Assembly: GCF_016863135.1 (NCBI RefSeq)
Contig: NZ_BOOH01000003.1
Location: forward strand, 62,001 to 126,000
From: Planobispora longispora
Lineage (GTDB): Bacteria; Actinomycetota; Actinomycetes; Streptosporangiales; Streptosporangiaceae
DNA length: 64,000 nt
Reading direction: 5' to 3'
Position numbers and translations under genes: made by a program. The number at the start of each line of letters is the position of its first letter. Position 1 is the stretch's first letter. Below the pieces are notes generated by a model that was not told the origin of the DNA, made no database searches, and was given only the letters and a program-made list of their open reading frames with translations. This document shows, one piece after another, positions 13,418 to 27,247 of this stretch.

Positions 13418-13451
13418 CGCCGGCAAGCAGACCAGATCAGCCGGAAGGTGT

Positions 13452-13499
13452 CCAATATTGGTATGGATATCCGATCAATACATGAATGGATATATATCC
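13452..13499. promoter_or_regulatory. AT-rich island with three palindromes upstream of the PBP gene
   Basis: In a >70% GC background this 48-bp stretch is AT-rich and contains CCAATATTGG (13452-13461), GGATATCC (13465-13472) and GGATATATATCC (13488-13499), each a perfect palindrome. It lies 35-82 bp upstream of the penicillin-binding protein start and contains -10-like sequences for both directions. A promoter/operator role is inferred. Confidence 0.45.
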
Positions 13500-13644
13500 T
13501 GGTAAGGGAGGGACGGCCGGGCACGGCCGCCTGACGCGGCGGCCCGCGCCGCCCTCCGCCGGGAGGGCGGGACATGAAGCGGAGAGCTCCGCCGATAGCG
13601 GACCCCACCTGTCCGCGATGGTGCCTACGGTCAGGAACATGAGC

Positions 13645-14235
13645 ATGAACTGGAACCATCTCCTCACCGAGCAGCTGGACTGGCACTGGGAGAACCATCT
13701 GCGGCCGGGCCTCGACGGCCTGACCGACGACGAGTACTTCTGGGAGCCGGTGGACGGCTGCTGGAGCGTACGGCCGCGCGGCGCCGCCGGCGCCCCGATC
13801 GCCGCCGGGAGCGGTGACCTCGTCATCGAGTTCGCGATCCCGGAACCCGATCCGGCGCCGGTGACCACGATCGCCTGGCGGCTCGGGCACCTCATCGTCG
13901 GCGTCCTGGGCGGGCGCGCCGGCTCGCACTTCGGCGCGCCCGCCGTGGACTACCGGAGCTTCGCCTACGCGGGCACGGCCGAGGAGGCCCTGCGCCAGCT
14001 GGACGGGGCGTACGCGGCGTGGCGGGACGGCGCGCGCGGCCTCGGCGCCGAGGGCCTCGCCCGGCCGTGCGGTCCCGCCGAGGGGCCGTACGCCGAGGAG
14101 CCCATGGCCGCCCTCGTGCTGCACATCAACCGCGAGGTGCTCCACCACGGCGCCGAGATCCTGCTCCTGCGCGACCTCTACCGCGACCGCCGCACCCTGC
14201 GGCCGTCACAGGCGGCCGACGAGGCCGCCCGCTGA
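13645..14235 (+). CDS. DinB-like (DinB/MDMPI fold) protein
   Basis: About 196 residues of the DinB-like four-helix bundle type common in actinobacteria. Typical features are the N-terminal NWNHLLTEQLDWHWENHLRP, LTDDEYFWEPVDGCWSVRP, the His-containing AWRLGHLIVGVLGGRAGSHF and the C-terminal LHINREVLHHGAEI. Family members bind a divalent metal through histidines; some are thiol-dependent enzymes, and the substrate here is unknown. The frame opens earlier, but AGGA at 13633-13636 sits 8 nt before the ATG at 13645. Confidence 0.82.
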   Translation: MNWNHLLTEQLDWHWENHLRPGLDGLTDDEYFWEPVDGCWSVRPRGAAGAPIAAGSGDLVIEFAIPEPDPAPVTTIAWRLGHLIVGVLGGRAGSHFGAPAVDYRSFAYAGTAEEALRQLDGAYAAWRDGARGLGAEGLARPCGPAEGPYAEEPMAALVLHINREVLHHGAEILLLRDLYRDRRTLRPSQAADEAAR

Positions 14236-14257: not shown

Positions 14258-15253
14258 TCAGGGCGCGAGCGCGGGCAGGACGACCTCCTCCAGGACCGCC
14301 CGGGGCGCGGCGTCCTGGTCGGGCCCGTCGTAGTCGCCCGCGGTGACGGCCACGACGAGGTCGAGGCCGGGCAGGAGGAAGAGCCGCTGTCCGCCGTTGC
14401 CCGTCGCGGCGGCCCGCCCGTCGGGGTCGACGTACCACAGGTAGCCGTAGGAGGTCTTCCCCCGGACCGGCACGCGCGGCCGGAGCATGGCGTCGGCCCA
14501 GTCCGCGGGGATCACCTCGCGCTCCAGCACGGCCCGGCCGATCCTGGCCATGTCCCGCGGGGTCAGCCGGAGCCCGGCGGCGGGCGAGGCGACCCCGTCG
14601 TCCCCCGCCATCCATTCGAAGGAGTCGATGCCGAGCGGCTCGAACAGCGCGGCGCGCGCGAACTCCTCCAGCGGCCGCCCGGCGCCCCGGGCGATGAGGG
14701 CGCCGATCAGCGCCGTGGCGCCCCCGTTGTAGTGCCAGCGGACGCCCGGCTCCTCCACGATCGGGCGTTCCAGCACGAACCGGTAGCGGTCCTCCGCCAT
14801 CTCCATGGCGATCTCGCTGTTCTCCGGCCCTGTGTACGGCGCGCTCTCGTCCCATTCCAGCCCGAGCGTCATGGTCAGCGCGTGCTCGACGGTCAGCCGC
14901 GCCCGCCGGGGGTCGGCGGCCAGGTCGGGATACTCGGGGAAGTGGCGCAGGATCGGCTCGCCGGGTCCGGGCACCAGGCCGCCGGCGAGCGCGATGCCGT
15001 ACAGCAGGCCGGTGACGCTCTTGGTGACCGAGCGGAGGTCGTGCAGGGTGTCCGGCCCGAAGTCGACCGTGCCGTGCGGGACGCCCCAGGAGAAGTCCGG
15101 GCCGCTGCCGTAGTGCTCCAGGACCAGCTCACCGCGGCGGGCCACCACGACGCCGTGCAGGTTCGGGGCGCGCCCCTCGCGGACGAGGCCGTCGAGCCGG
15201 TCCGCCAGGTCGGCGGCGAACCCCGCCTTCTCAGGACTGGTTTTCTGCCACAT
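14258..15253 (-). CDS. Serine hydrolase, beta-lactamase/class C family
   Basis: 331-residue penicillin-recognising serine hydrolase related to esterases and class C beta-lactamases. The nucleophile motif SVTK (SxxK) is near residue 75, the YxN-type motif HYNGG near 174, and the third motif appears as GNGGQ near 280. There is no signal peptide, so it is probably cytoplasmic; an esterase or amidase role is more likely than antibiotic resistance. GGAGG lies 4 nt before the ATG. It converges on the DinB-like gene. Confidence 0.88.
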   Translation of the reverse strand: MWQKTSPEKAGFAADLADRLDGLVREGRAPNLHGVVVARRGELVLEHYGSGPDFSWGVPHGTVDFGPDTLHDLRSVTKSVTGLLYGIALAGGLVPGPGEPILRHFPEYPDLAADPRRARLTVEHALTMTLGLEWDESAPYTGPENSEIAMEMAEDRYRFVLERPIVEEPGVRWHYNGGATALIGALIARGAGRPLEEFARAALFEPLGIDSFEWMAGDDGVASPAAGLRLTPRDMARIGRAVLEREVIPADWADAMLRPRVPVRGKTSYGYLWYVDPDGRAAATGNGGQRLFLLPGLDLVVAVTAGDYDGPDQDAAPRAVLEEVVLPALAP

Positions 15254-15515
15254 GGTTCCTCCGAATTTGACGGAACTTATCTAGCGGCGAGCCTTCCGCA
15301 ATGAAGAAACTGGCGCATCACCAAATTTCATGAAGAACACCCTCACCCCCCGCTCTCCGGCGCCGAGACGACCCGGGCGATCCGGAAACTTTCCCTTCCC
15401 ACCCTTCGTCAAAGGGTTAAAGAGCAGATAAAAGCCATGCTTCCACGGGGGTCGGAACACGCGCGGGGAGGTACGGGAAGCGTTGACGGGGAGTAGGGGG
15501 GCGGCAGGTCCGCCG

Positions 15516-16784
15516 ATGAGCGCCGAGGGTGTCGATCACGCCCTGCGCGGCCGCCGCGAGGAGCGGGACCGCATCTCCGACGGTGTCCTCGACCTCGACG
15601 CGCACACCATCGTCCGGCTGCTGCAGACCGCCCCGCTGCGCGGCGCGACCGCGCGGCGGTGGGATCAGGTGCGGGGGCGCGTGGCCCTGCTCTGGGCGCT
15701 GCTGGACGCCTACCGCGCCGTCGTGGAGGAGGCCGAGCGGATCCGGGGCACCCACCGGCGGCTCGGGGCCGACGAGCTCGCCGAGCTCACCTGGCTGCTG
15801 GCCGGGCCCGCCGTACGGCTCACGCCGGACACCGGGCCGGTGGAGCGGCGCCGGTTGCTGGGGCCCGGGGAACAGCGGTTCACCCTGGACGAGGCCGTGG
15901 CCGCGATGGAACTGGCCTTCCACGACGTCACCGGCCTGGTCGCCGAGGTCGACGCGGCCTGGAACGCGGCTCTCCCGCGCCTCGACGCCGCCGCGGCCCA
16001 GGCCGGGGCGGCCCGGCGGTTCCTGCACGAGCTGGGCGAGGGCGACCCCGACCTGGACGTGTGCGAGCGGGAGATCGAACGGGTCCGCGAGGAGCTGCGC
16101 CACGACCCGCTCGGCGACGGCGGGCGGGACCTGGAACGGGTCGCCGCCGACACCTCCCGCCTGCACGAGCGGGCGCGGCGGGCGGCCGAGGTCCGGCGCG
16201 CGTACGGCCGCCGGCGCGAGGCGCTGCGGTCCCTGCTCGGCCGGGTGGCCGCCGCCGAACAGGAGTCCCTGCGCGCCCGCGACCTCGTGGTGGCGAAGAT
16301 CGCCTCTCCGGCGCTGCCCGCCCTCCCCGGCCGGGCGTCCGCCCTGAACGAGCGCCTGGCCGCGCTGGACGCCCCGAGCTCCGCGAGCTCCGCGAGCTCC
16401 GCGGGCCCCGCGGAGGCGGCGGTCCCGGAGGGCGGCGCCCGCGGCCCGGACGCGATCGGGGACCCGGGCGGACACGGCGGCGGGGGGTGGCTGGAACGCG
16501 CCGACCTCCTCGCCGCGCTGGAGCGCGCCGCGGAGGAGGCCCTGCTCCAGTCGGAGCGGGCCACCGCCTCCCTGCGCGAGCTGATCGAGCGCCGCGACGA
16601 GCTCCGCGGCCGGCTGGAGGCCTTCCGGGCCAGGGCCGTACGGCTCGGCCTGGCCGAGGACCCCGCGCTCGCCCGCGCGCACCTGCGCGCCCGAGACCTG
16701 CTCTGGACGGCCCCGTGCGACCTGCGCAAGGCGACGGAGGCCGTCAACGGATACCAACGCGCGATCCAGGGAGCCGCCGGATGA
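15516..16784 (+). CDS. Coiled-coil protein, first gene of the PknG-type operon (unknown function)
   Basis: 422 residues, very rich in Ala, Arg, Glu and Leu, with long helical stretches (about 55-75, 130-270 and 340-420) consistent with coiled coils. No catalytic motif, signal peptide or membrane segment is seen. A linker near residue 290 contains a 9-bp DNA repeat (SSASSASSAG). The ATG at 16781 of the kinase gene overlaps its stop (ATGA), so the two are translationally coupled. Its job is probably structural or adaptor-like within the kinase/FHA module. A TTG at 15483 is an alternative start. Confidence 0.75.
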   Translation: MSAEGVDHALRGRREERDRISDGVLDLDAHTIVRLLQTAPLRGATARRWDQVRGRVALLWALLDAYRAVVEEAERIRGTHRRLGADELAELTWLLAGPAVRLTPDTGPVERRRLLGPGEQRFTLDEAVAAMELAFHDVTGLVAEVDAAWNAALPRLDAAAAQAGAARRFLHELGEGDPDLDVCEREIERVREELRHDPLGDGGRDLERVAADTSRLHERARRAAEVRRAYGRRREALRSLLGRVAAAEQESLRARDLVVAKIASPALPALPGRASALNERLAALDAPSSASSASSAGPAEAAVPEGGARGPDAIGDPGGHGGGGWLERADLLAALERAAEEALLQSERATASLRELIERRDELRGRLEAFRARAVRLGLAEDPALARAHLRARDLLWTAPCDLRKATEAVNGYQRAIQGAAG

Positions 16785-19156
16785 CCGCTTGCGCCCAGCC
16801 GAACTGCACGGGAACCATCGAGGACGGTTACTGCGACCTGTGCGGCCACCCCGCCTCGCCGCCCGCCGCCTCCCTCCCGGCCACCCCGCCTTCGCACGGC
16901 TCCGCGCCGCCCTCATACGGCTCCGCGCCGTCCTACGGCTCCGCGCCGCCGCCGTACGGCTCCGTCCCGTCCGCGCCCGGATCCGCCCCGTTCCCGCACC
17001 CTTCCGCGCCCATCACGATCCCGTCCGGGAGTCGCGGCAGCGCCCCCACCTCCGGCCGCGGGACCCGGGGCACCGGGGGCACCCGGCCCGGGCAGCTGGG
17101 CGCGGGGCTGGCCGAGGTGCCCCCGGTGGTCTACCGGGACCCGATGGCGGTGGTGCTGCAGGACCCCCAGGTCCCCGAGGAGAAGCGGTTCTGCGCCAAA
17201 CCCGACTGCGCCAGGCCGGTCGGCCGGAGCAGGAACGGCCGCCCGGGCCGCACCGAGGGGTTCTGTCCGCACGACGGCACCCGGTTCTCCTTCACCCCCA
17301 AACTGCGCGAGGGCGACCTGGTCTCCGGGCAGTACGAGGTGAAGGGCTGCCTGGCCCACGGCGGGCTCGGCTGGATCTACCTGGCCGCCGACCGGAACCT
17401 CGACGGCCGCTGGGTGGTGCTCAAGGGGCTGCTGAACACCGCCGACGCCGAGGCGCTGGCCGTGGCGGAGGCCGAGCGCCGGTTCCTGACCGGGGTGGAC
17501 CACTCCAACATCGTCAAGATCTTCAACTTCGTCCGGCACCGGGAGCCCGGCGCCGAGGCCGGGCGGATGGCCGGATACCTCGTCATGGAGTACGTCGGCG
17601 GCGAGTCCCTGCACGACCAGCTCCGCCGCAGGCTCCGGGAGAGCGGCAACACCGAGGCGCTGCCGCTGCGCCAGGCGATCCCGTACGCGCTGGAGATCCT
17701 GCGCGCGTTCGCCTACCTGCACGACCGCGGCATGCTCTACTGCGATCTCAAGCCCGCCAACGTGATCCAGGTCGGACGGGAGCTCAAGCTCATCGACCTG
17801 GGCGCGGTGCGGATGGCCTCCGACCAGGACAGTCCCATCTACGGGACGGTCGGCTACCAGGCCCCGGAGATCGCCTCCGCGGGGCCGTCGGTCGCCTCCG
17901 ACCTCTACACGGTCGGGCGGACGCTGGCGGTGCTGAGCTTCCCGTTCAGCCCGGTCCGCGGCGGCGCCGAGGCGCCCCTGCCCGCCCTCGGCGAGCTGCC
18001 GCCCGCGGTCGGGTACGAGTCCTTCCACCGCTTCCTGCGCCGGGCGACCGATCCCTCCCCCGCCGCCCGCTTCGCGAGCGCGGAGGAGATGGCCGACCAG
18101 CTCATGGGGGTCCTGCGGGAAGTGCGCGCCGCCGAGGACGGCATGCCCTACCCCGCGCCGTCGGCCCTGTTCGGGCCCGAGCGGATCCCCGCCGGGACCG
18201 CCGTCGCGGGGCGCGGCGACGGCCGTGTCCTGGCGCCGCTGGAGCGGGCCGCCGCCGGGACCGCCCTGCCGGTCCCGCTGGCCGACCCCGCCGACCCGGG
18301 CACCGCGTTCCTGTCCGGCCTGACCGCCCGCACCCCCGGCGAGCTGATCACCATGCTCGGCTCGACCCCGCACACGCCGGAGACCCTGCTCGCGCTCACC
18401 CGGCTCAGCGCCGAGCAGGGGGCCGGGGAGACCGGCGGCCTGCTCGGCCAGGTGGCCCGGGAGCTGCCCGGCGACTGGCGGGTCCTGTGGACCCGGGGGG
18501 TGCACGCGCTCGTCGCCGGCGATCCGGCGGACGCCGTACGGATCTTCGACCGCTGCTACGACCTGATGCCCGGCGAGTGCGCGGCCCGGCTGGCGCTGGG
18601 GTTCGCACTGGAGTGCGCCGGGGACGCGCGGGCCGCCGCGTGGCGGTACGGGAGCGTGTGGCGCACCGACCGCTCCTACGTGAGCGCCGCCTTCGGCCTG
18701 GCCAGGACCCTGCTGGCGGCCGGCGACCCGGACGGGGCCATGGCGGTGCTCGACGAGGTGCCGCACAGTTCCAGCCATTTCGTGGCGGCGCAGCTGGCCG
18801 TCGTGGCGGGGAGCATCCGGAGCCGGGACCTGGCCGCGCTGGACGCCGCCGCGCTGGCCTCGGCGGGAGAGCGCCTCGCCGACCTGGACGACCTCGATCC
18901 CCGGCGGCGGGGGGAGATGGCGGCCGAGGTGCTGGAGAGAGCGCTCGACTGGCTCGGCTCGGGGGGCGGCGCCGCAGCGCGGACCGCCTCGGGCCCGGGC
19001 GCCGGCGCCCTGCTCGGGACGCCGTTCACCGAGCGCTCGCTCCGCCGGGAGCTGGAACGCCGCTACCGCGAGCTGGCCCGGGTGGCGGCCACGCCCGCGG
19101 AGCGGTACGCGCTCGTCGACCGGGCCAACGCCTCCCGTCCCCGGACGATGCTGTGA
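16781..19156 (+). CDS. pknG: PknG-like serine/threonine protein kinase with zinc ribbon and TPR region
   Basis: 791 residues. Order: an N-terminal zinc ribbon (CAQPNC...CDLCG, residues 4-22), a Ser/Pro/Tyr-rich repeat linker (about 36-90), a rubredoxin-like segment (CAKPDC at 138-143, CPHDG at 162-166), the kinase domain (about 180-440) and a helical TPR-like C-terminus. Kinase residues seen are the Gly loop LAHGGLGWIY, VVLK (Lys215), CDLKPAN (Asp322) and DLG (Asp339). HRD is YCD, as in PknG kinases, which lack the usual arginine. Mycobacterial PknG signals amino-acid availability to central metabolism through FHA proteins, and an FHA gene lies three genes downstream. Starts and stops overlap with both neighbours. 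Confidence 0.92.
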   Translation: MTACAQPNCTGTIEDGYCDLCGHPASPPAASLPATPPSHGSAPPSYGSAPSYGSAPPPYGSVPSAPGSAPFPHPSAPITIPSGSRGSAPTSGRGTRGTGGTRPGQLGAGLAEVPPVVYRDPMAVVLQDPQVPEEKRFCAKPDCARPVGRSRNGRPGRTEGFCPHDGTRFSFTPKLREGDLVSGQYEVKGCLAHGGLGWIYLAADRNLDGRWVVLKGLLNTADAEALAVAEAERRFLTGVDHSNIVKIFNFVRHREPGAEAGRMAGYLVMEYVGGESLHDQLRRRLRESGNTEALPLRQAIPYALEILRAFAYLHDRGMLYCDLKPANVIQVGRELKLIDLGAVRMASDQDSPIYGTVGYQAPEIASAGPSVASDLYTVGRTLAVLSFPFSPVRGGAEAPLPALGELPPAVGYESFHRFLRRATDPSPAARFASAEEMADQLMGVLREVRAAEDGMPYPAPSALFGPERIPAGTAVAGRGDGRVLAPLERAAAGTALPVPLADPADPGTAFLSGLTARTPGELITMLGSTPHTPETLLALTRLSAEQGAGETGGLLGQVARELPGDWRVLWTRGVHALVAGDPADAVRIFDRCYDLMPGECAARLALGFALECAGDARAAAWRYGSVWRTDRSYVSAAFGLARTLLAAGDPDGAMAVLDEVPHSSSHFVAAQLAVVAGSIRSRDLAALDAAALASAGERLADLDDLDPRRRGEMAAEVLERALDWLGSGGGAAARTASGPGAGALLGTPFTERSLRRELERRYRELARVAATPAERYALVDRANASRPRTML

Positions 19157-20196
19157 TCGGCGTGGAGACGGGCGTGTGCCCGCGGTGCGGGGAGGGCGTG
19201 CGTCCCGGGGAGTCCTTCTGCGAGTGCTGCGGGCAGCCGCTGGAGGCGGCCCGGTGCGTCCGGTGCGGGCCCGCGCCGGTGGATCCGGAAGGGTACTGCG
19301 AGCGGTGCGGCCTGCGTCAGCCCGCGGAGAGCGACCACGTCGAGGTGGAGGCCGGCGGCGCGGCGGGGGTGAGCGACCGCGGCCTGCGGCACGCCCGCAA
19401 CGAGGACGCCATGGCGCTGGTCGCCGCGGACGGCCTGACGATCGGCGTGGTCTGCGACGGCGTGTCCTCCTCGCCCCGGCCCGAGACCGCCTCGTCCACG
19501 GCCGCCGGGACCGGCGCCGCCACGCTCCTGGCGGAGCTCCGCTCGGGCGCGGACCCGGCCTCCGCCACCCGCGCCGCCGTCGCCCGGGCCGCCGCGGCCG
19601 TGGCCGCCCTGGCCTCGTCCCCGGAGGACGCGCCCGCCTGCACCTATGTCTCGGCCGTCGTGGAACCCGGTGCGATCACCGTCGGCTGGGTCGGCGACAG
19701 CCGGGCCTACTGGCTGCGTGCCGAGTCCCCCGCGGACCGGCCCGCCGATGCCTCCGCCGTGCCCGCCGGCGGCCCCGCCGCCTCCACCGCGCCGGTGCCC
19801 GAATCCGCCCCCACCGTGCCCATGCCCGTGGTGCCCGTGCCCGTGGCGTCCGCGCCGGCCGATGACTCCGCGCTGCTCACCGAGGACGACACGGCCGCCC
19901 CCGGTGTGCTGTCCGCCTGGCTCGGGGCGGACGCCGGCGAGGTGGAGGCGCATGTCCGCACGCTCGCGCCCGAGGGACCGGGCGTGCTCCTGGTGTGCAG
20001 CGACGGGCTCTGGGGCTATCTGGAGGAGGCCCGGGCCCTGGCCCCTCTCGCCACCGGGGACGCGCCGCCGGAGGCGGCCCGCGCCCTGGTGCGGCACGCG
20101 CTCGCGGCCGGGGGCCGCGACAACATCACCGTCCTGGTGGTCCCGTACGGTCCGCCGCCCGGACCCGCACCCGCCGACCTGGGGAGGAACGCATGA
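19153..20196 (+). CDS. PP2C-type protein phosphatase with N-terminal zinc ribbons
   Basis: 347 residues. Two short cysteine clusters open the protein: CPRCGEGV...CECCGQPL and CVRCG...CERCGLRQ (residues 9-55). The PP2C metal-dependent phosphatase domain follows: VSDRGLRHARNEDAM, VVCDGVSSSP, VGWVGDSRAYWL, VCSDGLWGYL and GGRDNITVLVV supply the metal-binding aspartates. A Pro/Ala/Val-rich insertion lies at about 195-240. The GTG start at 19153 overlaps the kinase stop (GTGA). It is the natural partner that reverses the upstream kinase, inferred from adjacency. Confidence 0.92.
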   Translation: MIGVETGVCPRCGEGVRPGESFCECCGQPLEAARCVRCGPAPVDPEGYCERCGLRQPAESDHVEVEAGGAAGVSDRGLRHARNEDAMALVAADGLTIGVVCDGVSSSPRPETASSTAAGTGAATLLAELRSGADPASATRAAVARAAAAVAALASSPEDAPACTYVSAVVEPGAITVGWVGDSRAYWLRAESPADRPADASAVPAGGPAASTAPVPESAPTVPMPVVPVPVASAPADDSALLTEDDTAAPGVLSAWLGADAGEVEAHVRTLAPEGPGVLLVCSDGLWGYLEEARALAPLATGDAPPEAARALVRHALAAGGRDNITVLVVPYGPPPGPAPADLGRNA

Positions 20197-21509
20197 GCGA
20201 CCAGCCCGTGTTCACGCTCGACATCGACCAGAACAAGTACCTGGCCGCGGGCGGCCAGGAGATCCACGCCATCCTCACCGTCCAGGCCACGGGCGCGCCC
20301 ATGGCCGGCGGGACCGTGGAGGCCGCCGAGGTGATCATCGTCGACGCCTCCGGCTCGATGAGCGGCGACAAGATCGCCGAGGCGTGCCGGGCCGCTCAGG
20401 CCGCCGTGGACACGCTGCGGGACGGCGTGCACTTCGCCATCGTCGCCGGCACCCACGAGGCGATCAAGATCTTCCCCGAGACGCGCGGCACGGTCAGGGC
20501 CGACCCGCACACCAGGAGGCAGGCGGGGAGCGCGCTGAGCAGGCTGGCCGCCGGCGGCGGCACCGCGATCGGCAAGTGGCTCCGGCTCGCCGCGGAGCTG
20601 CTGGCCGACCACCCCGGCGCGGTCCGGCACGCGATCCTGCTGACCGACGGCCAGAACAACGAGGACGAGCGCACGTTCGGCGCCGCCCTCGCCCACTGCG
20701 CGGGCAGGTTCGTGTGCGACAGCCGGGGGGTCGGCACCGACTGGGCCCCGGCCGAGCTGCGCAAGGTCGCCGACGCGCTGCTGGGCACCTCCGGGTTCAT
20801 CCGCAGGCCGGAGGAGCTCGCCGACGACTTCCGGGCGATGGTCGAGACCACCATGGGCAAGGCCGTGGCCGAGGTCGCGCTGCGGATCTGGACCCCGCAG
20901 AACGGCAGGGTGCGCTACCTCAAGCAGGTGTCGCCGACCCTGGCGGACCTGACGGGCATGCGCGCCCCCGTCGACCAGCTGACCGGCGACTACCCGACCG
21001 GGGCCTGGGGCGCGGAGACGCGGGTCTACCACCTCTGCGTCGAGGTGGCCCCCGGGACGGTCGGCCAGGAGATCCGGGGGGCCTGGGTGCGGCTGGTGGT
21101 CCCGGGCGGCGGTGAGATCCTCGCCCGGGGCAACGTGCTGGCCCAGTGGACCGACGACCTGGCCCTGTCCACCCGGGTCAGCCCGGGCGTGGCCCACTAC
21201 ACCGGGCAGGCGGAGCTGTTCGACCTGATCCAGGAGGGCCTGAGCGCCCGGGCCGCGGGCGACCTCGACACCGCGACCGCGCGCCTGGGCCGGGCCAGGG
21301 CGCTGGCCGAGCAGTCGGGCAACGACGAGACCGCCCGGCTGCTCGCCAAGGTCGTCGAGATCGATCCGGGGACCGGGACCGCCCGGCTCCGGCGCTCCGT
21401 CGACAAGGCCGACGAGATCGCGCTCGACACCGGATCCGTGCGCACGGCGCGCATGCGCCGGGATCCCGGCGACCCGGGAACCTCCGGGCTCCGCAGCGCC
21501 ACGGGCTGA
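20193..21509 (+). CDS. von Willebrand factor A domain protein
   Basis: 438 residues with a VWA domain at about 40-225. The MIDAS metal site is VIIVDASGSMSGDKI (DxSxS), with a threonine in GGGTAIGKW and an aspartate in LLTDGQNNE. The C-terminal half has beta-rich then helical sequence (GLSARAAGDLDTATARLGRARAL resembles a TPR helix pair). No signal peptide or transmembrane helix, so cytoplasmic. It starts at an ATGA overlap with the phosphatase gene, with GGGGAGG upstream. It probably acts as a protein-binding scaffold in this operon. Confidence 0.92.
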   Translation: MSDQPVFTLDIDQNKYLAAGGQEIHAILTVQATGAPMAGGTVEAAEVIIVDASGSMSGDKIAEACRAAQAAVDTLRDGVHFAIVAGTHEAIKIFPETRGTVRADPHTRRQAGSALSRLAAGGGTAIGKWLRLAAELLADHPGAVRHAILLTDGQNNEDERTFGAALAHCAGRFVCDSRGVGTDWAPAELRKVADALLGTSGFIRRPEELADDFRAMVETTMGKAVAEVALRIWTPQNGRVRYLKQVSPTLADLTGMRAPVDQLTGDYPTGAWGAETRVYHLCVEVAPGTVGQEIRGAWVRLVVPGGGEILARGNVLAQWTDDLALSTRVSPGVAHYTGQAELFDLIQEGLSARAAGDLDTATARLGRARALAEQSGNDETARLLAKVVEIDPGTGTARLRRSVDKADEIALDTGSVRTARMRRDPGDPGTSGLRSATG

Positions 21510-21525
21510 GAGGGAGAGGGACGCC

Positions 21526-22482
21526 ATGGTCATCTGCCCCCAGGGGCACACCCCGGGCGAGGCGGGCCTCGCCGACGGGTACTGCGACGTCTGCGGCGCC
21601 CGCCTGACCGGTGCGAACGGGGCGGGAGCAGCCGGGCAGGGGCCGTCCGGGGCGGCCGGAGGGGGGACGGCCCACCCCTGGGGTCCCGGTTCCGCCGGCG
21701 GGCGGGCGGGCGCCGTCCCGGGCCCGCAGGCGCCGCCCGCCGGGGCCGGGCAGCCGCAGGAGTGCGCCGCCTGCGGGGCGCCGGTCATCGGGCGTTTCTG
21801 CGAGGACTGCGGCCACGACCAGACGGCGCCCGTCCCCGGCGCGGCGAGCGGTCCCGGGGCCTCCGGCGGATTCCCGGCGTCCGGCGCCACCGGAGCCCCG
21901 GGCCCGGCGGGCGTGTTCCCCGGCTCCGCCGACGGAGGCTCGGGTCCGGCGGGGACGTTCCCCCGCTCCACCGCCGGCGGAGGCTCGGGTCCGGCGGGCG
22001 TGTTCCCCGGCTCCGCCGGCGGAGCCCCGGGCCCGGCCGGGACGTTCCCGGGCGTCCCCGCGGCCGGGCCGGCGACGCGGTGGGAGGCGGTCGTCCAGGC
22101 GGACCGCGACCACTACGACCGGATGATCGCCCAGGGCGGGCCGGACGCCGAACGGATAGCGTTCCCGCCCTACTGTCCCCGGCGGGACGTCCCCCTGGCG
22201 GACGGGGAGATCCGCATCGGGCGGACCAGCCGGTCCAGGAACCTGGTCCCGGAGATCGACCTCAGCGGCCCGCCCGAGGATCCCGGGGTCTCCCACCTGC
22301 ACGCCGTCCTGCTCCCCTCCCCCGGCGGCGCGTGGACCCTGGTCGATCCCGGCTCGGCCAACGGCACCGTGGTCAACGGCAGGCAGGTCGGGGTGAACGA
22401 GCCGGTGCCGGTGGGTGACGGCGACCGGATCCACCTCGGCGCGTGGACCCTCATCACGCTGCGGCGCAGGAGAGAAGCATGA
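21526..22482 (+). CDS. FHA-domain protein with zinc ribbons and repeat linker
   Basis: 318 residues. An N-terminal CPQGH...CDVCGARL zinc-ribbon-like motif and a second one (CAACGAP...CEDCGHD, about 82-103) are followed by a Gly/Pro-rich linker of four GPAG(V/T)FP repeats (126-180). A C-terminal FHA domain (about 225-315) shows GRTSRS, SHLHA and GSANGTVVNG, which bind phosphothreonine. It is the probable reader of the kinase's phosphorylation, analogous in concept to GarA under mycobacterial PknG, though not orthologous in architecture. The GlnX-like gene overlaps its stop by ATGA. Confidence 0.92.
   Translation: MVICPQGHTPGEAGLADGYCDVCGARLTGANGAGAAGQGPSGAAGGGTAHPWGPGSAGGRAGAVPGPQAPPAGAGQPQECAACGAPVIGRFCEDCGHDQTAPVPGAASGPGASGGFPASGATGAPGPAGVFPGSADGGSGPAGTFPRSTAGGGSGPAGVFPGSAGGAPGPAGTFPGVPAAGPATRWEAVVQADRDHYDRMIAQGGPDAERIAFPPYCPRRDVPLADGEIRIGRTSRSRNLVPEIDLSGPPEDPGVSHLHAVLLPSPGGAWTLVDPGSANGTVVNGRQVGVNEPVPVGDGDRIHLGAWTLITLRRRREA
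21901..22065 (+). repeat. In-frame tandem repeat, four units, in the FHA gene linker
   Basis: Four degenerate units of about 42-45 bp, each encoding GPAG(V/T)FP plus a Ser/Ala/Gly tail. The DNA units alternate in type (V,T,V,T), suggesting duplication of a two-unit block. It lies between the zinc ribbons and the FHA domain. Confidence 0.75.
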
Positions 22483-23987
22483 CATCCGTCCCGGTGAACC
22501 AGATTCCCGCGCCCCCGTCCCCGGACCGGGCCGCCTCCCCCGCCCCGGGGGCGGCCCCCGCCCGGAGCCCGGCGCCGTCCCCGGGGGCCCCGGCCCCTCC
22601 GGCGCCCCCGCGCAGGACCGGTCCGCCGTCCCGGCTGCGGAGCGTGCCCGGCCGGGTCCTCGCCATCACGGGCGCCTGCGTTCTCGCCCTCGTCCTGCTG
22701 TTCGGCGCGCTGTCGACGTCCTTCCAGGACGTCAACGACGGCCTGGACGTCATCGGCCACGACGCCGGACCCCAGGTCGTGGCCACGGCCGACCTGTACT
22801 TCGCGCTCAGCGACATGGACACCCAGGTCGCCAACGTCCTGCTGATCGGAGACGAGCACGGGCTCGGCAAGGGACGGCAGCGCGCGCTGGAGCTGTACGA
22901 GCGGCGCAGGAGCGACGCCGGGCGGGCGGTGCTCCAGGCGTCGGCCCTGGCCGGCGCGGACCCGGCCGAGCGGCGGACCGTCCAGGCGGTCCTGGACCGC
23001 CTGGGCCGGTACGAGCGGCTGGCCGCCCGCGCCCTGCTCCTGGACGAACAGGCCGGGCACCCCGCGGGCCCCCCGCCGGAGCGGGTCCTCGAGGTCTACC
23101 GCCAGGCGACCGACCTGATGCGGCTGGAACTGCTGCCCATGGCCTACAACCTCACGCTGGAGAGCGGGACCATCGTGCGCCGCGCCCACGACGAGCACAC
23201 CTCCGCCCTGGGGACGGGACAGGTGCTCGTGGCCGCCGCCGGGCTCCTCGCGCTCGGCGGGCTGGTCTGGCTCCAGGCGTTCCTCGCCCGGCGGTTCCGC
23301 CGGGTGTTCAACCCGGCCCTGCTGGTGGCGACGGCGATCGCCGGGATGTACGCGCTGACCGGGTTCACGGTCCTGGGCGGGGAGGCCGGCCTCCTGCAGG
23401 AGGCCAAGCGGGAGGGGTTCGACTCCGTGCTCGCCCTGGCCCGGGCGCGGGCCGTGGGCAACAGCATGCACGGCGACCAGAGCCGCTACCTCCTCGACCC
23501 GGAGCGGGCCGACACCTACGAGCAGACCTACCTCGACAAGTCCCAGTCGGTGCTCTACGCGCCCAGCGGGAACCTCGGCGCCTACTACACGGCGGTGGCC
23601 GAGGGGGTGGCCGCCTATCCCGCCAAGGCCGAGTTCCTGGGCCTCATCGGGCAGGAGGCGGCCCGCTCCGGCCCGTCCGCCCGCCAGGCGGCCATCGCCG
23701 ACGTGCTCCGGCGGTACCGGGAGTTCCAGCAGAGCGACGCCCAGCTGCGCAGGGCGACCTCACGCGAGGCCGTGCAGGTTCTGGTGGGACAGCTGGCGAC
23801 GAGGTTCGAGGCGTACGACGCCGCCCTGGTGAAGCTCGCCGGGATCCACCGCACCACGTTCGACCGGGCGGTGCGCGACGGCGAGGAACGGGTCGAGGAA
23901 CTGTGGTTCCTGCTCCCGATGGCCATGATCTCCACGGCCGTGCTGATCGTCGCCGGGGTCTGGCCCCGGCTCTCGGAATACCGTTGA
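22479..23987 (+). CDS. glnX: GlnX-like transmembrane signalling protein
   Basis: 502-residue integral membrane protein. Hydrophobic segments are at about 54-75, 236-258, 274-294 and 472-492; the N-terminal ~50 residues are Pro-rich and cytoplasmic. Two extracellular helical regions (about 75-235 and 295-470) would face the lipoprotein GlnH. In mycobacteria GlnX passes the GlnH amino-acid signal across the membrane to PknG. Here the order is kinase, phosphatase, VWA, FHA, glnX, glnH. The ATG at 22479 overlaps the FHA gene stop. Confidence 0.85.
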   Translation: MTSVPVNQIPAPPSPDRAASPAPGAAPARSPAPSPGAPAPPAPPRRTGPPSRLRSVPGRVLAITGACVLALVLLFGALSTSFQDVNDGLDVIGHDAGPQVVATADLYFALSDMDTQVANVLLIGDEHGLGKGRQRALELYERRRSDAGRAVLQASALAGADPAERRTVQAVLDRLGRYERLAARALLLDEQAGHPAGPPPERVLEVYRQATDLMRLELLPMAYNLTLESGTIVRRAHDEHTSALGTGQVLVAAAGLLALGGLVWLQAFLARRFRRVFNPALLVATAIAGMYALTGFTVLGGEAGLLQEAKREGFDSVLALARARAVGNSMHGDQSRYLLDPERADTYEQTYLDKSQSVLYAPSGNLGAYYTAVAEGVAAYPAKAEFLGLIGQEAARSGPSARQAAIADVLRRYREFQQSDAQLRRATSREAVQVLVGQLATRFEAYDAALVKLAGIHRTTFDRAVRDGEERVEELWFLLPMAMISTAVLIVAGVWPRLSEYR

Positions 23988-23998
23988 CGGGAGGGACC

Positions 23999-24886
23999 AT
24001 GCGACCTGTGAGCGTGTCCGCCGGGGCGTTCCCCCCGGACCCCGGCCGCCGCGGGCGGCGATCCGGGCGGAGGCCCCGCCCGCTCGCGCTCGCCGCGGCG
24101 GCGGGGCTGGCGGTCCTGCTGGCCGGGGCGTGCGGGACCGGCCGCCCCGACTCGATCCTGGACCGCGAGACCCTGGTGGTCGGCGTCAAGCCCGACCAGC
24201 CCGGCCTGGGGATGAAGGTGGGCGAGGGCCGCTACGAGGGCTTCGACGTCGACGTCGCCACGGAGGTGGCCCGGCGGATCGGAGCCCCCCGCGTCGAGTT
24301 CGTCACCGTGCTGTCCTCCAACCGCCAGCGGTTCATCGAGGAGGGGAAGGTCGACATGGTCGTCGCGACCTACTCGATCACCCCGGTGAACCGGTCGAAG
24401 GTGACCTTCGCCGGGCCGTACTACGTCGCCCACCAGGACACCCTCGTTCGCGCGGAGGACAAGGACGTCGACAACGTGCGGGACCTGAAGGACAGGCGCC
24501 TGTGCCAGGCCGCCGGGTCGAACTCCTGGCGCCGGGTGAAGGAGGAGCGGCAGATCGCCGTCCGGCTCGTCCCGGCCGCCACCTACAGCGAGTGCCTGGA
24601 CAAGCTGCGCGACAAGGCGGTGGACGCGGTCTCCACCGACGACCTGATCCTGGCGGGGTTCTCCGCCGAGACCGGGTCGGCGTTCCGGATCGTCAACGCC
24701 CCGTTCACCGACGAGCGGCTGGGCATCGGCATGCGCAAGGGCGACCTCGACGGCTGCGAGGCCGTCAACCGGGCGCTCACCGCCATGTACCAGGACGGCA
24801 CCGCAGGGAAGCTGCTGAGGAAGTGGTTCGGCGCGTCGGGCCTGGAGCTGAACTTCAGCGTCCCCCAGTTCGAGGGGTGCGCCTGA
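23999..24886 (+). CDS. glnH: GlnH-like amino-acid-binding lipoprotein
   Basis: 295-residue extracytoplasmic solute-binding protein (family 3). The Arg-rich N-terminus and hydrophobic stretch end in the lipobox LAGAC (Cys near residue 43), so it is anchored outside the membrane. Binding-fold motifs include YEGFDVDVATEVARRIG, VDMVVATYSITPVNRSKVTFAGPYY and LIL-type hinge segments. There is no ABC permease or ATPase beside it, so it is a sensor, not a transporter subunit, as known for mycobacterial GlnH (aspartate/glutamate). GGGAGGGACC precedes the ATG. Confidence 0.92.
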   Translation: MRPVSVSAGAFPPDPGRRGRRSGRRPRPLALAAAAGLAVLLAGACGTGRPDSILDRETLVVGVKPDQPGLGMKVGEGRYEGFDVDVATEVARRIGAPRVEFVTVLSSNRQRFIEEGKVDMVVATYSITPVNRSKVTFAGPYYVAHQDTLVRAEDKDVDNVRDLKDRRLCQAAGSNSWRRVKEERQIAVRLVPAATYSECLDKLRDKAVDAVSTDDLILAGFSAETGSAFRIVNAPFTDERLGIGMRKGDLDGCEAVNRALTAMYQDGTAGKLLRKWFGASGLELNFSVPQFEGCA

Positions 24887-24916
24887 CCCGACGGGCGGCG
24901 GTTGGGAGGCGGGGCG

Positions 24917-25465
24917 TCAGGAGTAGGCGGCGACCATGCCGACGATCATCCCGGTGACGCCGAGCACGGTGACCAGGGCTCCGGCCGCCACCGCGGCGCG
25001 GCGGCCCCGCCGCGCGCCGAGGAAGTACATGATCACGTAGGGCAGGAAGGCCAGTCCGGCGACCCCGACGAAGGGGAGGGTGAGCGCGGCGACCACGCCG
25101 GTCGCGCCCGCCTTGACCGCGCGGTCGCCCTCGGGGGCGAGCTGGGCGCGGGTCACGTCGCCCGCCTCGGAGTCCGGGGAGGCGGCCACCGGGATCGCCG
25201 CGCCGCCGCCGTCGGGGGCGAAGCTGCCCCGGCAGTCGTAACGGCCCTTGCCCAGGTCCTCGCAGGAGACCACCGTGAGGGTGCCGGGTGTGCCGACCGT
25301 GCCCGCCGCCAGCTTGACGTCGCCCACCGCGAGCAGGATCGGCAGCAGGCCGACCGCCAGCCAGCACAGGACGAGGATCACCCGGGCGGCGGGCCCCGGC
25401 AGGTTGCCCGGCTGCGGGCGCACGGGCTGGAAGGCATCCACGATGCTCTCAAACGAGTCACTCAT
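24917..25465 (-). CDS. Membrane protein of unknown function
   Basis: About 182 residues with three or four hydrophobic segments: VILVLCWLAVGLLPILLAV near residue 32, GVVAALTLPFVGVAGLAFLPYVIMYF near 125 and AAVAAGALVTVLGVTGMIVGMVA at the C-terminus. Between the first and second lies a ~70-residue extracytoplasmic loop with two cysteines (VVSCEDLGKGRYDCRG) that could form a disulfide. No family is recognised. It converges on glnH with 30 bp between stops. Starts at 25471 or GTG 25480 are also possible. Confidence 0.7.
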   Translation of the reverse strand: MSDSFESIVDAFQPVRPQPGNLPGPAARVILVLCWLAVGLLPILLAVGDVKLAAGTVGTPGTLTVVSCEDLGKGRYDCRGSFAPDGGGAAIPVAASPDSEAGDVTRAQLAPEGDRAVKAGATGVVAALTLPFVGVAGLAFLPYVIMYFLGARRGRRAAVAAGALVTVLGVTGMIVGMVAAYS

Positions 25466-25520
25466 GGACATATGGTGCACCAGCCCACTTGCGACTCACC
25501 TGACGACAACTTGCGCCGGG

Positions 25521-25544
25521 CGGCGCGCCTCGATCGGCGCGCCG
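25521..25544 (-). terminator. Hairpin downstream of the acyltransferase gene
   Basis: CGGCGCGCC and GGCGCGCCG form perfect 9-bp arms with a 6-nt loop, 17 nt past the plsC-type stop codon. No U-tract follows, as is common in high-GC actinobacteria. Confidence 0.5.
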
Positions 25545-25560
25545 GGACCGCGCCGGCCGC

Positions 25561-26310
25561 CTACGACGCCGGCTTGCGCCGGGCCTCGGCCTCCGCGGCG
25601 TCCATCGCGGCCGCCTCCTCCGGGGTCGGCGCGGTGCCGCCCAGGTGCCGCGGCTGCCACCAGACGCCCTGCGGGATCTCCGGGTAGGTCCGCTGGGCCC
25701 GGTCGAGCAGCTCCGCCATCCGCTCGCGCAGGCTCACGGTGGCGGCGTCGTAGTCGTCGCCCCGCTTGGGGTTCATCGGCTCGCCCACCAGGATGGTGAC
25801 CGGCACGTGGCGCTGCAGGAGCTTCCTGGGGCGGCCCTTGGTCCACAGGCGCTGGGTGCCCCAGAGCGAGATCGGGACCATCGGCACGCCCGCCGCGACG
25901 GCCATCCGCACCGCGCCGTTCTTGATGTCCTTGATGGTGAAGGACCTGCTGATCGTGGCCTCGGCGAAGACGCCCACGACCTCGCCGCCCCGCAGCGCCT
26001 TCAGCGCCGCGCCGAACGCCGAGGCCCCGGCCGACCTGTCGACCGGGATGTGGTGCATGCCGCGCATCAGCGGACCGGAGATCTTGTGGTCGAAGACCTC
26101 CTTCTTGGCCATGAAGCGCACCAGCCGCCCGGCCGGGCGGGCGGCGAACCCGGCGAAGATGAAGTCGAGGTAGCTGATGTGGTTGCTGACCAGCACCGCT
26201 CCACCGGTCCTGGGGATGTTCTCGGCGCCCTCGATGCGGATCCTCATGTCCAGCGTCCGGAACATGGTCAACGCCGCCCCGATGACCGGGGGGTACACGA
26301 TCTCAGCCAT
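25561..26310 (-). CDS. 1-acyl-sn-glycerol-3-phosphate acyltransferase family (PlsC)
   Basis: 249 residues with the PlsC acyltransferase fold. Catalytic motif I NHISYLDF (Hx4D type) is near residue 42, motif III VGVFAEATISRS is near 133, and VPMVPISLWGTQRL follows near 160. It transfers an acyl group to lysophosphatidic acid or another lipid alcohol at the membrane. Actinobacteria carry several paralogues, so the acceptor is uncertain. Good length for the family. It is transcribed alone, with a hairpin after the stop. Confidence 0.9.
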   Translation of the reverse strand: MAEIVYPPVIGAALTMFRTLDMRIRIEGAENIPRTGGAVLVSNHISYLDFIFAGFAARPAGRLVRFMAKKEVFDHKISGPLMRGMHHIPVDRSAGASAFGAALKALRGGEVVGVFAEATISRSFTIKDIKNGAVRMAVAAGVPMVPISLWGTQRLWTKGRPRKLLQRHVPVTILVGEPMNPKRGDDYDAATVSLRERMAELLDRAQRTYPEIPQGVWWQPRHLGGTAPTPEEAAAMDAAEAEARRKPAS

Positions 26311-26364: not shown

Positions 26365-27156
26365 TCAGAGGGCGTAGCCCTCGAACAGGGAGACGCGGTC
26401 GCGCAACTTGTCGGCCGCCGCCAGATGGGAGTGTCCGTCGCAGGTCAGCGGGTCCCGTACGGGCACGACCGGCGACTCCGGGACGGGCGCGCCCGCCGGC
26501 CGCGCCAAGGACAGCGCGCCCCTGCAGGTCTCGATGATGACGTGCAGGCTCGCGAGCTGCTCGTGCACCGCGGCCAGCGTGACGCAGATCGTCTCCGCCT
26601 GGGCGAGCATCCTCTCCCGCTCCGCCGCCATCTCCTTCCGCAGTTTCTCGGACTTCTCCAGAACGGAACGTCTGTCCACGGGAGAATTCGGCTCCCGGGC
26701 CGGTCGCGGCGCGGAGGAGGCGCCGGCCGCGTTACGCTCGCCGCGCGACCGCGACCGCCGCCCCACGCCCCGCAGGACGGACGTGTGCCGCATCCTCTTC
26801 GGAACCGCCGGCCGCTGATCACGGGCCAGGAAGAGAGCGGGACGGCTGGGCGACGGCCCCGGCCACATCAGCTGGCCCAGCTTGTGCACCGCCTCATGGG
26901 CGATGACCACCAGTTCCCCGCCCCTGTCGCGCAGATCCCGGTGCGCCCGCGCCAGCATCCGCATCCCGCTGATGTCGCAGAAGGTCATCATGGCGGCGTC
27001 CACCAGAACGTGCAGAACACCCTCGGCGATCAGCAGCTCCAGCGCGGACTCCACCTGCCCCTGATTGCAGGCGTCCAGCTCACCCGAGACCGCCACGACG
27101 GCCGAGGCGGTCTCGGCATCGCGGTGGACCACGCGCACTGTGAGATCCATGCTCAT
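26365..27156 (-). CDS. STAS-domain protein with C-terminal coiled coil
   Basis: About 263 residues. The N-terminal ~110 residues form a STAS (anti-sigma-factor antagonist) domain: VVAVSGELDACNQGQVESALELL, and MMTFCDISGMRMLARAH, where the usual phosphorylated serine position reads D-I-S-G-M. A basic linker (about 130-165) leads to a helical region (EKSEKLRKEMAAERERMLAQAE). The frame opens far upstream, but GAGG lies 6 nt before the ATG at 27156. It is divergent from the CheB-like gene and probably belongs to a partner-switching network with the ATPase and second STAS protein further right. Confidence 0.82.
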   Translation of the reverse strand: MSMDLTVRVVHRDAETASAVVAVSGELDACNQGQVESALELLIAEGVLHVLVDAAMMTFCDISGMRMLARAHRDLRDRGGELVVIAHEAVHKLGQLMWPGPSPSRPALFLARDQRPAVPKRMRHTSVLRGVGRRSRSRGERNAAGASSAPRPAREPNSPVDRRSVLEKSEKLRKEMAAERERMLAQAETICVTLAAVHEQLASLHVIIETCRGALSLARPAGAPVPESPVVPVRDPLTCDGHSHLAAADKLRDRVSLFEGYAL

Positions 27157-27235
27157 GGATACCTCATCGTGGCCGTCCATGCCAACGTTTACCCAACACC
27201 GCGAGAATACACCGAATGAATCCGCCGTAACCGGA

Positions 27236-27241
27236 TAGGTA
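27236..27241 (+). promoter_or_regulatory. -10-like hexamer TAGGTA, leaderless promoter of the cheB-like gene
   Basis: TAGGTA ends exactly 6 nt before the ATG at 27248 and there is no Shine-Dalgarno. The arrangement matches that seen at several other genes in the window. Confidence 0.45.
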
Positions 27242-27247
27242 GGGCAC

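Follow-up and report, generated by a model that had tools for sequence, protein, structure and literature searches.

The subject of this analysis is a seven-gene operon of Planobispora longispora, located in a 64,000-nucleotide stretch of contig NZ_BOOH01000003.1 (assembly GCF_016863135.1, positions 62,001 to 126,000 of the forward strand), which we call the window and to whose numbering all coordinates refer. An earlier note on this DNA had described seven co-directional genes, most of them overlapping by 4 bp, with the GlnH-GlnX-PknG core known from mycobacteria accompanied by a phosphatase, a VWA protein, an FHA protein and a coiled-coil protein (CC), and with zinc-ribbon N-termini on three of the products. 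The open reading frame coordinates bear out this layout: the genes run in the order CC-PknG-PP2C-VWA-FHA-GlnX-GlnH on the + strand from 15516 to 24886, with 4-bp overlaps (ATGA or GTGA) at four of the six junctions and gaps at the other two, 16 bp between VWA and FHA and 11 bp between GlnX and GlnH. The gene identities, the core included, are upheld by Pfam and NCBIfam profile matches, and cysteine-pair zinc ribbons are present at the N-termini of PknG, PP2C and FHA. A sigma-70 consensus scan of 15200-25600, other promoter types lying outside that scan, returned no promoter-like site. The genes and the sites within them are as follows.

15516..16784, + strand: CC, a mainly helical coiled-coil protein of 422 residues (model mean pLDDT, the predicted local distance difference test score, 91.6)
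16781..19156, + strand: PknG, with N-terminal zinc ribbon, rubredoxin, Ser/Thr kinase and TPR parts, 791 residues (Pfam PknG_TPR 276.4 bits, Pkinase, PknG_rubred)
16790..16846, + strand: zinc-ribbon tag of PknG, CAQPNCTGTIEDGYCDLCG (motif pattern and alignment of relatives)
19153..20196, + strand: PP2C Ser/Thr phosphatase with N-terminal double zinc ribbon, 347 residues (Pfam PP2C_2 41.5 bits)
19255..19311, + strand: second ribbon of PP2C, tag PEGYCERCG (motif pattern)
20193..21509, + strand: VWA protein, a beta-sandwich split by a VWA domain, with C-terminal helical domain and basic tail, 438 residues (VWA_3 and VWA_3_C)
20229..20243, + strand: beta1-beta2 loop QNKYL of the VWA protein, proposed ribbon-docking surface (conservation and analogy with ArnB)
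21423..21446, + strand: C-terminal tail LDTGSVRT of the VWA protein, its Thr418 being a proposed phosphorylation site that the FHA domain would bind (conservation)
21526..22482, + strand: FHA protein, with two N-terminal zinc ribbons, a low-complexity linker and a C-terminal FHA domain, 318 residues (Pfam FHA 52.5 bits)
21535..21597, + strand: first ribbon of the FHA protein, CPQGHTPGEAGLADGYCDVCG (motif pattern and alignment)
22479..23987, + strand: GlnX membrane transducer, 502 residues, about four hydrophobic segments by hydropathy (NF058618 279.1 bits, cut-off 250)
23999..24886, + strand: GlnH amino-acid-binding protein, probable lipoprotein, 295 residues (SBP_bac_3 101.2 bits)

The active sites of the enzymes and of the reader domain are conserved, as direct counts over their relatives show. 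PknG, whose best PDB match is 2pzi (E 1.5e-147), keeps five catalytic positions in 189-191 of 191 relatives; four metal-site aspartates of PP2C are kept in 154-155 of 155 relatives and the first Asp in 145; and, among 141 relatives of the FHA protein, the phosphothreonine-binding Ser, His and Asn are invariant, the Arg being present in 132 and replaced by Lys in nine. For PP2C, which starts with GTG at 19153 (a GTG at 19162 is also possible), the Pfam double zinc ribbon profile scored 26.7 bits, slightly under its cut-off of 27.3. For the CC protein, searches of Pfam, NCBIfam and PADLOC gave no hit at the chosen thresholds, and its model had no PDB fold match at E<=0.001; its gene occupies the same position in most surveyed loci. 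In the 8.84-Mb genome, PknG_TPR matched once, the GlnX profile once over its cut-off with three weaker matches, and the single VWA_3_C match is the VWA protein of the operon.

The predicted structure of the VWA protein (mean pLDDT 92.0, with confidence dropping from residue 411 and below 50 at 424-438) points towards an archaeal switch. In a Foldseek search the model matched first 4fx5, a VWA protein of Catenulispora acidiphila, with a template modelling (TM) score of 0.91 and 52% identity, a match that takes in the tail; the ArnAB complex 8s05 followed (TM 0.67/0.76), and then the ArnB paralogue 5a8j (0.60/0.70). In the available text of the two Arn papers (PMC12852372, PMC6509490), the Catenulispora protein figures only as a structural relative of ArnB. 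By its model, the operon protein has an ArnB-like fold, namely a split beta-sandwich plus a C-terminal helical domain. In Sulfolobus, ArnA, composed of a zinc finger and an FHA domain, holds ArnB loosely via the zinc finger; phosphorylation of the ArnB C-terminus by ArnC leads to tight FHA binding, PP2A reverses it, and the whole acts as a nutrient-responsive switch (PMC12852372). What makes the contact is a hairpin at the C-terminal end of the zinc finger (residues 31-41, where the third and fourth Cys lie), which touches the beta1-beta2 loop of ArnB and the linker to its C-terminal domain (PMC12852372).

Both the loop QNx[YF]L and the linker VAHYTGQxE belong to the most strongly conserved parts of the operon's VWA family; within the loop, Q13 and N14 are each found in 145 of 151 relatives, Y or F16 in 140 and L17 in 149. 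The C-terminus follows the consensus LDTxSx[KR]TxR, in which Thr418 is present in 150 of the 151 relatives (the other has a gap), S415 in 148 and T413 in 125, and the residue at +3 is hydrophobic (V, M, L, I) in 118. FHA domains are known for their preference for a hydrophobic +3 residue. By eye, the tail also resembles the phosphorylation site of GarA/OdhI, for which a peptide containing VETTSVF has been given (PMC8546545); phosphopeptides of ArnB include IETTRR and IDTVEQTR (PMC6509490). The VWA metal site, DxSxS..T..D, is kept in 149 of 151 relatives and falls in a gap in the remaining two; labels of a missing metal site were failures of the text pattern at all loci except L133 and L168. 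Docking of the ribbons on this metal site was the idea that we favoured at first, since the metal ion of a VWA domain can bind an acidic residue supplied by a partner protein; it was put second to docking on the beta1-beta2 loop because the zinc finger in the ArnAB structure sits on that loop and the C-terminal linker (PMC12852372).

For the comparison of relatives, we surveyed 157 loci, comprising the window, 80 named loci most like its PknG and 76 chosen for variety, hence a non-random set. Four of the 76 (L120, L121, L127, L139) duplicate named loci; they were kept in the gene-content and ribbon-class counts over 157 loci and left out of the alignment and tag counts and of the 179-locus counts below. 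A locus is called packaged where PP2C and VWA genes stand beside PknG, and three-gene where PknG has only GlnX-GlnH.

The three ribbons share a short tag. PknG starts with CxxPxCxGTIEDGYCDxCG, PP2C carries ..DGYCExCG and the FHA protein CPxGH..DYCDxCG. Searched as a DNA pattern, [DE]G[YF]C[DE]xCG has three matches in the whole genome, once each in PknG, PP2C and FHA, and its reversed control has none. In 18 other genomes, picked by the analyst, all 13 matches fell within the operon by position and translation, all of them in PknG or PP2C; nine of these genomes had no match, four being three-gene, three having PknG without VWA and two being packaged. By direct computation, then, the shared motif is nearly absent elsewhere in the searched genomes. 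The looser [YF]C[DE]xCG still placed five of its eight own-genome matches in the operon, against three matches of its reversed control. At 112 packaged loci, the residue before the third Cys of PknG is Y or F in all 147 ribbons matched, although V, E, R and S were equally permitted there by the search pattern. Scored on PknGs with an uncut N-terminus (eight loci being unscorable), the ribbon is present at 111 of 111 packaged loci, four of five with PP2C but without VWA, two of four with VWA but without PP2C, one of 17 three-gene loci and none of five orphans. Even within one genome the distinction is visible: in G586 only the packaged PknG (L186) has ribbons, in contrast to L183-L185, and in G507 the PknG of L195 has one and those of L193 and L194 none. 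As for the gene content of G586, its four PknGs (L183-L186) stand in one three-gene locus, one packaged locus and two without partners. The PknGs of L084, L160-L164, L047, L053 and L055 carry the tag twice or three times in tandem.

What links the tag to the VWA protein is their joint loss. Over 179 loci, direct counting found an aromatic PknG tag at 147 of the 148 loci with a VWA gene (146 of 147 after removal of one duplicate; the pair L032/L224 remains within the 179) and at none of the 31 without, where the same wide search gained no tag. Left out of this set were 14 rows, three for a cut PknG N-terminus (L022, L031, L168) and the rest for a VWA position off the contig or stretch (L040, L046, L056, L137, L149, L173, L194, L233, L238, L241, L242). 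On a tree that took in 139 of the 179 loci, there are eight independent pairs, joined by well-supported branches, in which one member has VWA and the other lacks it; seven of them differ in the same way for the tag, none in the opposite way and one shows no difference (p = 0.016). With a narrower tag search window, which missed eight VWA loci, there were 10 pairs, about 8.6 going the same way and none opposite (median p 0.004). Genomes G305, G346, G440 and G319 show what the loss looks like: none has a VWA gene adjoining PknG, VWA_3_C being absent from the whole of the first three and found elsewhere in G319, and their PknG tags read EEGVCGVC, RDGECRVC, DGRCGRC and, in G319, a truncated one, so that in the first three the four cysteines are kept and the aromatic residue is lost. 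A further 40 loci added three new VWA-less package loci, L225 (GLC), L226 (GSC) and L228 (GLC), and altogether seven VWA-less loci have a PknG ribbon minus the aromatic residue (L123 V, L128 E, L130 R, L153 R, L225 L, L226 S, L228 L). Among 143 loci labelled as having a full VWA, an aromatic residue (Tyr or Phe in 97, Trp in 33) is present in 130 of the 131 FHA tags that were readable, and likewise in 76 of the 77 readable PP2C tags, L230 being the exception in both; at L123 and L226, which have no VWA, the FHA tags are decayed (VC), and at L133 the PP2C and FHA tags are decayed. The suggestion in the earlier note that the ribbons may be a common docking device is, as far as sequence comparison goes, its best-upheld guess, with the motif hardly found outside the operon in the genomes searched and the PknG tag following the VWA gene.

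Taken together, these observations incline us, by a little more than an even chance, to the reading that the operon is a nutrient-to-phosphorylation switch, in which an ArnA/ArnB-like FHA-VWA switch, suggested by sequence, model and analogy, would be mounted on GlnH-GlnX-PknG, the VWA protein being its hub and probably also the protein that is phosphorylated. By homology with corynebacteria and mycobacteria, GlnH would bind an extracellular amino acid, a signal that GlnX would relay to the TPR part of PknG. Inside, the VWA protein would serve as the hub on which PknG, PP2C and FHA dock by means of their tags (an aromatic residue before the third Cys and usually an acidic one after it), the likeliest docking site being the beta1-beta2 loop and the start of the C-terminal helical domain, as for the ArnA zinc finger on ArnB. 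PknG would phosphorylate Thr residues of the C-terminal tail (LDTxSxxT), the FHA domain would clamp the phosphorylated tail and PP2C would reverse the phosphorylation, while a GarA/OdhI relative encoded elsewhere would pass the signal to 2-oxoglutarate dehydrogenase.

Several observations weigh against this switch. The exact motif is missing from two packaged genomes (G253 and G189), where the acidic residue is Asn (DGYCN), and it never occurs in the FHA protein of the 18 other genomes, which have variants such as DYCD and DWCE. Pairs compared earlier under a looser definition of the ribbon gave no significant result (of 11 pairs, about 2.5 went the same way and 0.3 the opposite way; median p 0.5), and the aromatic trait was defined after the first VWA-less loci had been viewed; the new VWA-less package loci found later are only L225, L226 and L228, all of one genus code (g173), which is also that of L123. 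There is one locus, a distant paralogue (L159), with VWA and no aromatic PknG tag. PP2C and FHA tags track VWA less well than the PknG tag does: L230 has a VWA gene yet decayed PP2C and FHA tags, and L225 and L228, without VWA, keep an aromatic FHA tag (FC). At L133, moreover, an intact PknG tag accompanies a VWA gene from which the metal-site domain has been lost. The invariance of the metal site is itself left unexplained by docking of the ArnAB type, the zinc finger in that complex not being reported, in the available text, to touch it (PMC12852372). Finally, co-loss is no proof of contact, and both parts may vanish from a module in decay through other causes.

The likeness to the Arn switch lies in the zinc finger plus FHA partner, the three-part VWA fold, the phosphatase, the nutrient control and a kinase with a TPR-like stretch; for the FHA protein the likeness to ArnA is one of architecture (N-terminal zinc finger, C-terminal FHA domain). 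The operon differs in being bacterial, in having tags also on kinase and phosphatase, and in being joined to an external amino-acid sensor. As proposed, it works like the Arn switch and is not a member of that system, since its phosphatase is PP2C instead of PP2A and there is no archaellum to control. Type VI secretion has, in its PpkA-PppA-Fha1 pathway, a further likeness, with kinase, PP2C, FHA, a VWA domain and membrane sensors; that pathway differs by controlling secretion, and the likeness is one of component types.

Closer to home is the PknG-GlnX-GlnH pathway of Corynebacterium and Mycobacterium (PMC6069109, PMC9769921, PMC8546545), which shares with the operon the rubredoxin and TPR kinase, GlnX and GlnH, with the GarA/OdhI relative and the 2-oxoglutarate dehydrogenase E1-type enzyme also present in the genome; the operon adds the CC, PP2C, VWA and FHA genes and the N-terminal PknG ribbon, the latter being lacking from 16 of the 17 three-gene loci. 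One could suppose that the operon is simply this GlnH-GlnX-PknG switch acting on GarA/OdhI, with PP2C as the GarA phosphatase, FHA and VWA as accessories, and ribbons that raise local concentration or bind metal. The clear homology of PknG, GlnX and GlnH and the presence of both downstream components speak for it; but it offers no reason for one rare motif in three proteins, and leaves the loss of the PknG tag with VWA and the invariant Thr of the VWA tail unexplained. We regard it as rather unlikely, and it is compatible with a VWA hub rather than exclusive of it.

Two other explanations seem improbable. The ribbons might bind nucleic acid, ribosomes or another cell component and have spread among the three genes by intra-operon recombination; zinc ribbons are often nucleic-acid binders and the tandem ribbon copies of some PknGs would fit, but the loss of the PknG tag tracks the VWA gene, and the altered residues flank the zinc ligands, most cysteines being kept. 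Slightly less probable again is a stress or defence triad that merely shares an operon with the nutrient sensor, after the pattern of TerY-P, in which VWA, PP2C and a Ser/Thr kinase with a zinc ribbon likewise stand in one operon (PMC11090510). Against it, the kinase ribbon sits at the N-terminus in the operon and at the C-terminus in TerY-P, and the package keeps GlnX-GlnH across distant lineages in both gene orders; among the PADLOC matches listed (25 of 33 for the kinase), there were kinase-type matches and one of PP2C type, and none for VWA, FHA, GlnX, GlnH or CC. The operon also differs from TerY-P in its PknG-type kinase with TPR and in the addition of FHA and the nutrient sensor. Membership of TerY-P itself was ruled out by the position of the kinase ribbon at the N-terminus and of TPR at the C-terminus.

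The synteny survey across actinobacteria that the earlier note had proposed, run on the 157 loci, revealed how widespread the package is. Of 394 genomes drawn from the class, 140 had a PknG_TPR match at E<=1e-30; a sample of 246 from the phylum, searched at E<=1e-20, yielded 15. Gene content, read directly from the loci, has PP2C and VWA adjoining PknG at 119 of 157; ten others have PP2C without VWA (most of these cut by contig ends), five VWA without PP2C, 17 only GlnX-GlnH and six nothing. Planobispora rosea has a PknG that shares 90% identity with the window protein, and the package recurs in Streptosporangiales, Actinoplanes, Nocardia and family f3, which rules out our thought of a package peculiar to this genome. 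The order directly observed in Streptosporangiales is CC-PknG-PP2C-VWA-FHA-GlnX-GlnH, and in Actinoplanes, most Nocardia loci and family f3 it is GlnX-GlnH-CC-PknG-PP2C-VWA-FHA; outside the class, the package was seen at L169, with GlnX-GlnH on the opposite strand, and at L073 and L087 (bins labelled Acidimicrobiaceae). Four loci (L125, L136, L144, L171) have a PknG-like kinase and a VWA gene with no PP2C or FHA found adjoining, the first three also having a GlnX-like gene.

In a quick tree of 92 PknGs, the 18 package-less rows of family f4 form one clade (support 100), sister to a seven-member packaged clade that includes named Nocardia (both 99), among other large packaged clades. Within f4, the PknG of L177 is nearest to 2pzi (1401 bits) and that of L192 to 7mxb, which we take to be the mycobacterial and corynebacterial PknG structures, respectively. 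Because the three-gene clade sits among packaged lineages in the PknG tree, the mycobacterial and corynebacterial three-gene operon is probably a reduced form, as the simpler reading of a quick tree in which the root was not inferred. Loci L165 and L166 (f101) and L130, whose PknG is the nearest to that of the window in this tree, look like further losses. The earlier note was right that mycobacteria lack the extra set, no PP2C, VWA or FHA gene being found beside mycobacterial-type PknG in the loci surveyed, and is not supported in calling the operon expanded, given the majority of packaged loci and the nesting of the three-gene clade among them. Its phrase "self-contained" was half right: sensor, kinase and partners stand together, and the GarA/OdhI relative and the 2-oxoglutarate dehydrogenase E1-type enzyme are encoded elsewhere in the genome. 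A broader proposition, that the usual output stage of actinomycete PknG is a bacterial counterpart of ArnA-ArnB, with a VWA hub recruiting kinase, phosphatase and FHA reader by one shared tag that is rare elsewhere in these genomes, and that the pathway of mycobacteria and corynebacteria is a pared-down descendant from which hub and tags disappeared together, we put forward tentatively, at somewhat less than an even chance.

The sensor end of the operon has peculiarities of its own. In the rubredoxin of the window PknG (17192-17278), alignment to the PDB match places Asp at the fourth Cys (FCPHDG), and the metal site may, to judge from this substitution, be altered or lost. GlnH, with the GlnH structures 6h2t and 6h1u as its second and third PDB matches, has a single Cys following a hydrophobic run of residues (LLAGAC), which makes a loose lipobox. 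When the residue roles described for Asp/Glu binding by mycobacterial GlnH (PMC6069109) are transferred, the equivalents of Arg147, Thr162, Ser164 and Asp250 are kept and Lys161, Arg169 and Trp232 are replaced by Ala, Asn and Tyr. Arg169 is the holder of the ligand carboxylate (PMC6069109); Asn at this position is found in seven of 129 aligned GlnH, among Planobispora/Planomonospora relatives, the window protein having an Arg one residue later. The ligand in this clade may differ from the usual one. The GarA/OdhI relative scored 184.6 bits over model positions 1-129 of 130, under the equivalog cut-off of 200, and the 2-oxoglutarate dehydrogenase E1-type enzyme is the likely metabolic output. 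At L094 (216-764), a GarA/OdhI relative carries an N-terminal zinc ribbon of its own (YCTQCG..RFCSRCG), followed by DSTSTISL at the place of the known ETTSVF site.

In the open literature, subscription papers and supplements lying outside the search, our searches brought up no paper whose entry or quoted passages describe a PknG/PP2C/VWA/FHA package. The pknG-glnX-glnH operon has been reported as widely conserved, with a STRING-based figure (PMC6069109) in which the neighbouring genes may be visible, and the available text of the ArnAB structure paper makes no mention of PknG or of this operon (PMC12852372). PknG has been studied mainly through the three-gene operon, the less common form among the loci examined. 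If the proposed switch is true, the wider PknG pathway has a dedicated phosphatase, a reader, a scaffold and its own likely phospho-target; a portable docking tag would be at hand whose residues can be mutated singly; a bacterial nutrient kinase would be linked to an archaeal starvation switch; and a function would be suggested for 4fx5, the solved actinobacterial VWA structure.

Additionally, the genome as a whole gave 67 Pkinase matches at E<=0.001, 65 of them over the family cut-off. The genes that flank the operon are apparently unrelated to it: upstream lie a penicillin-binding protein (11114-13426, - strand), a DinB family protein (13486-14235, +) and a beta-lactamase-family protein (14258-15253, -), and downstream an acyltransferase (25561-26310, -), a STAS protein (26365-27375, -) and a CheB methylesterase (27248-28258, +).

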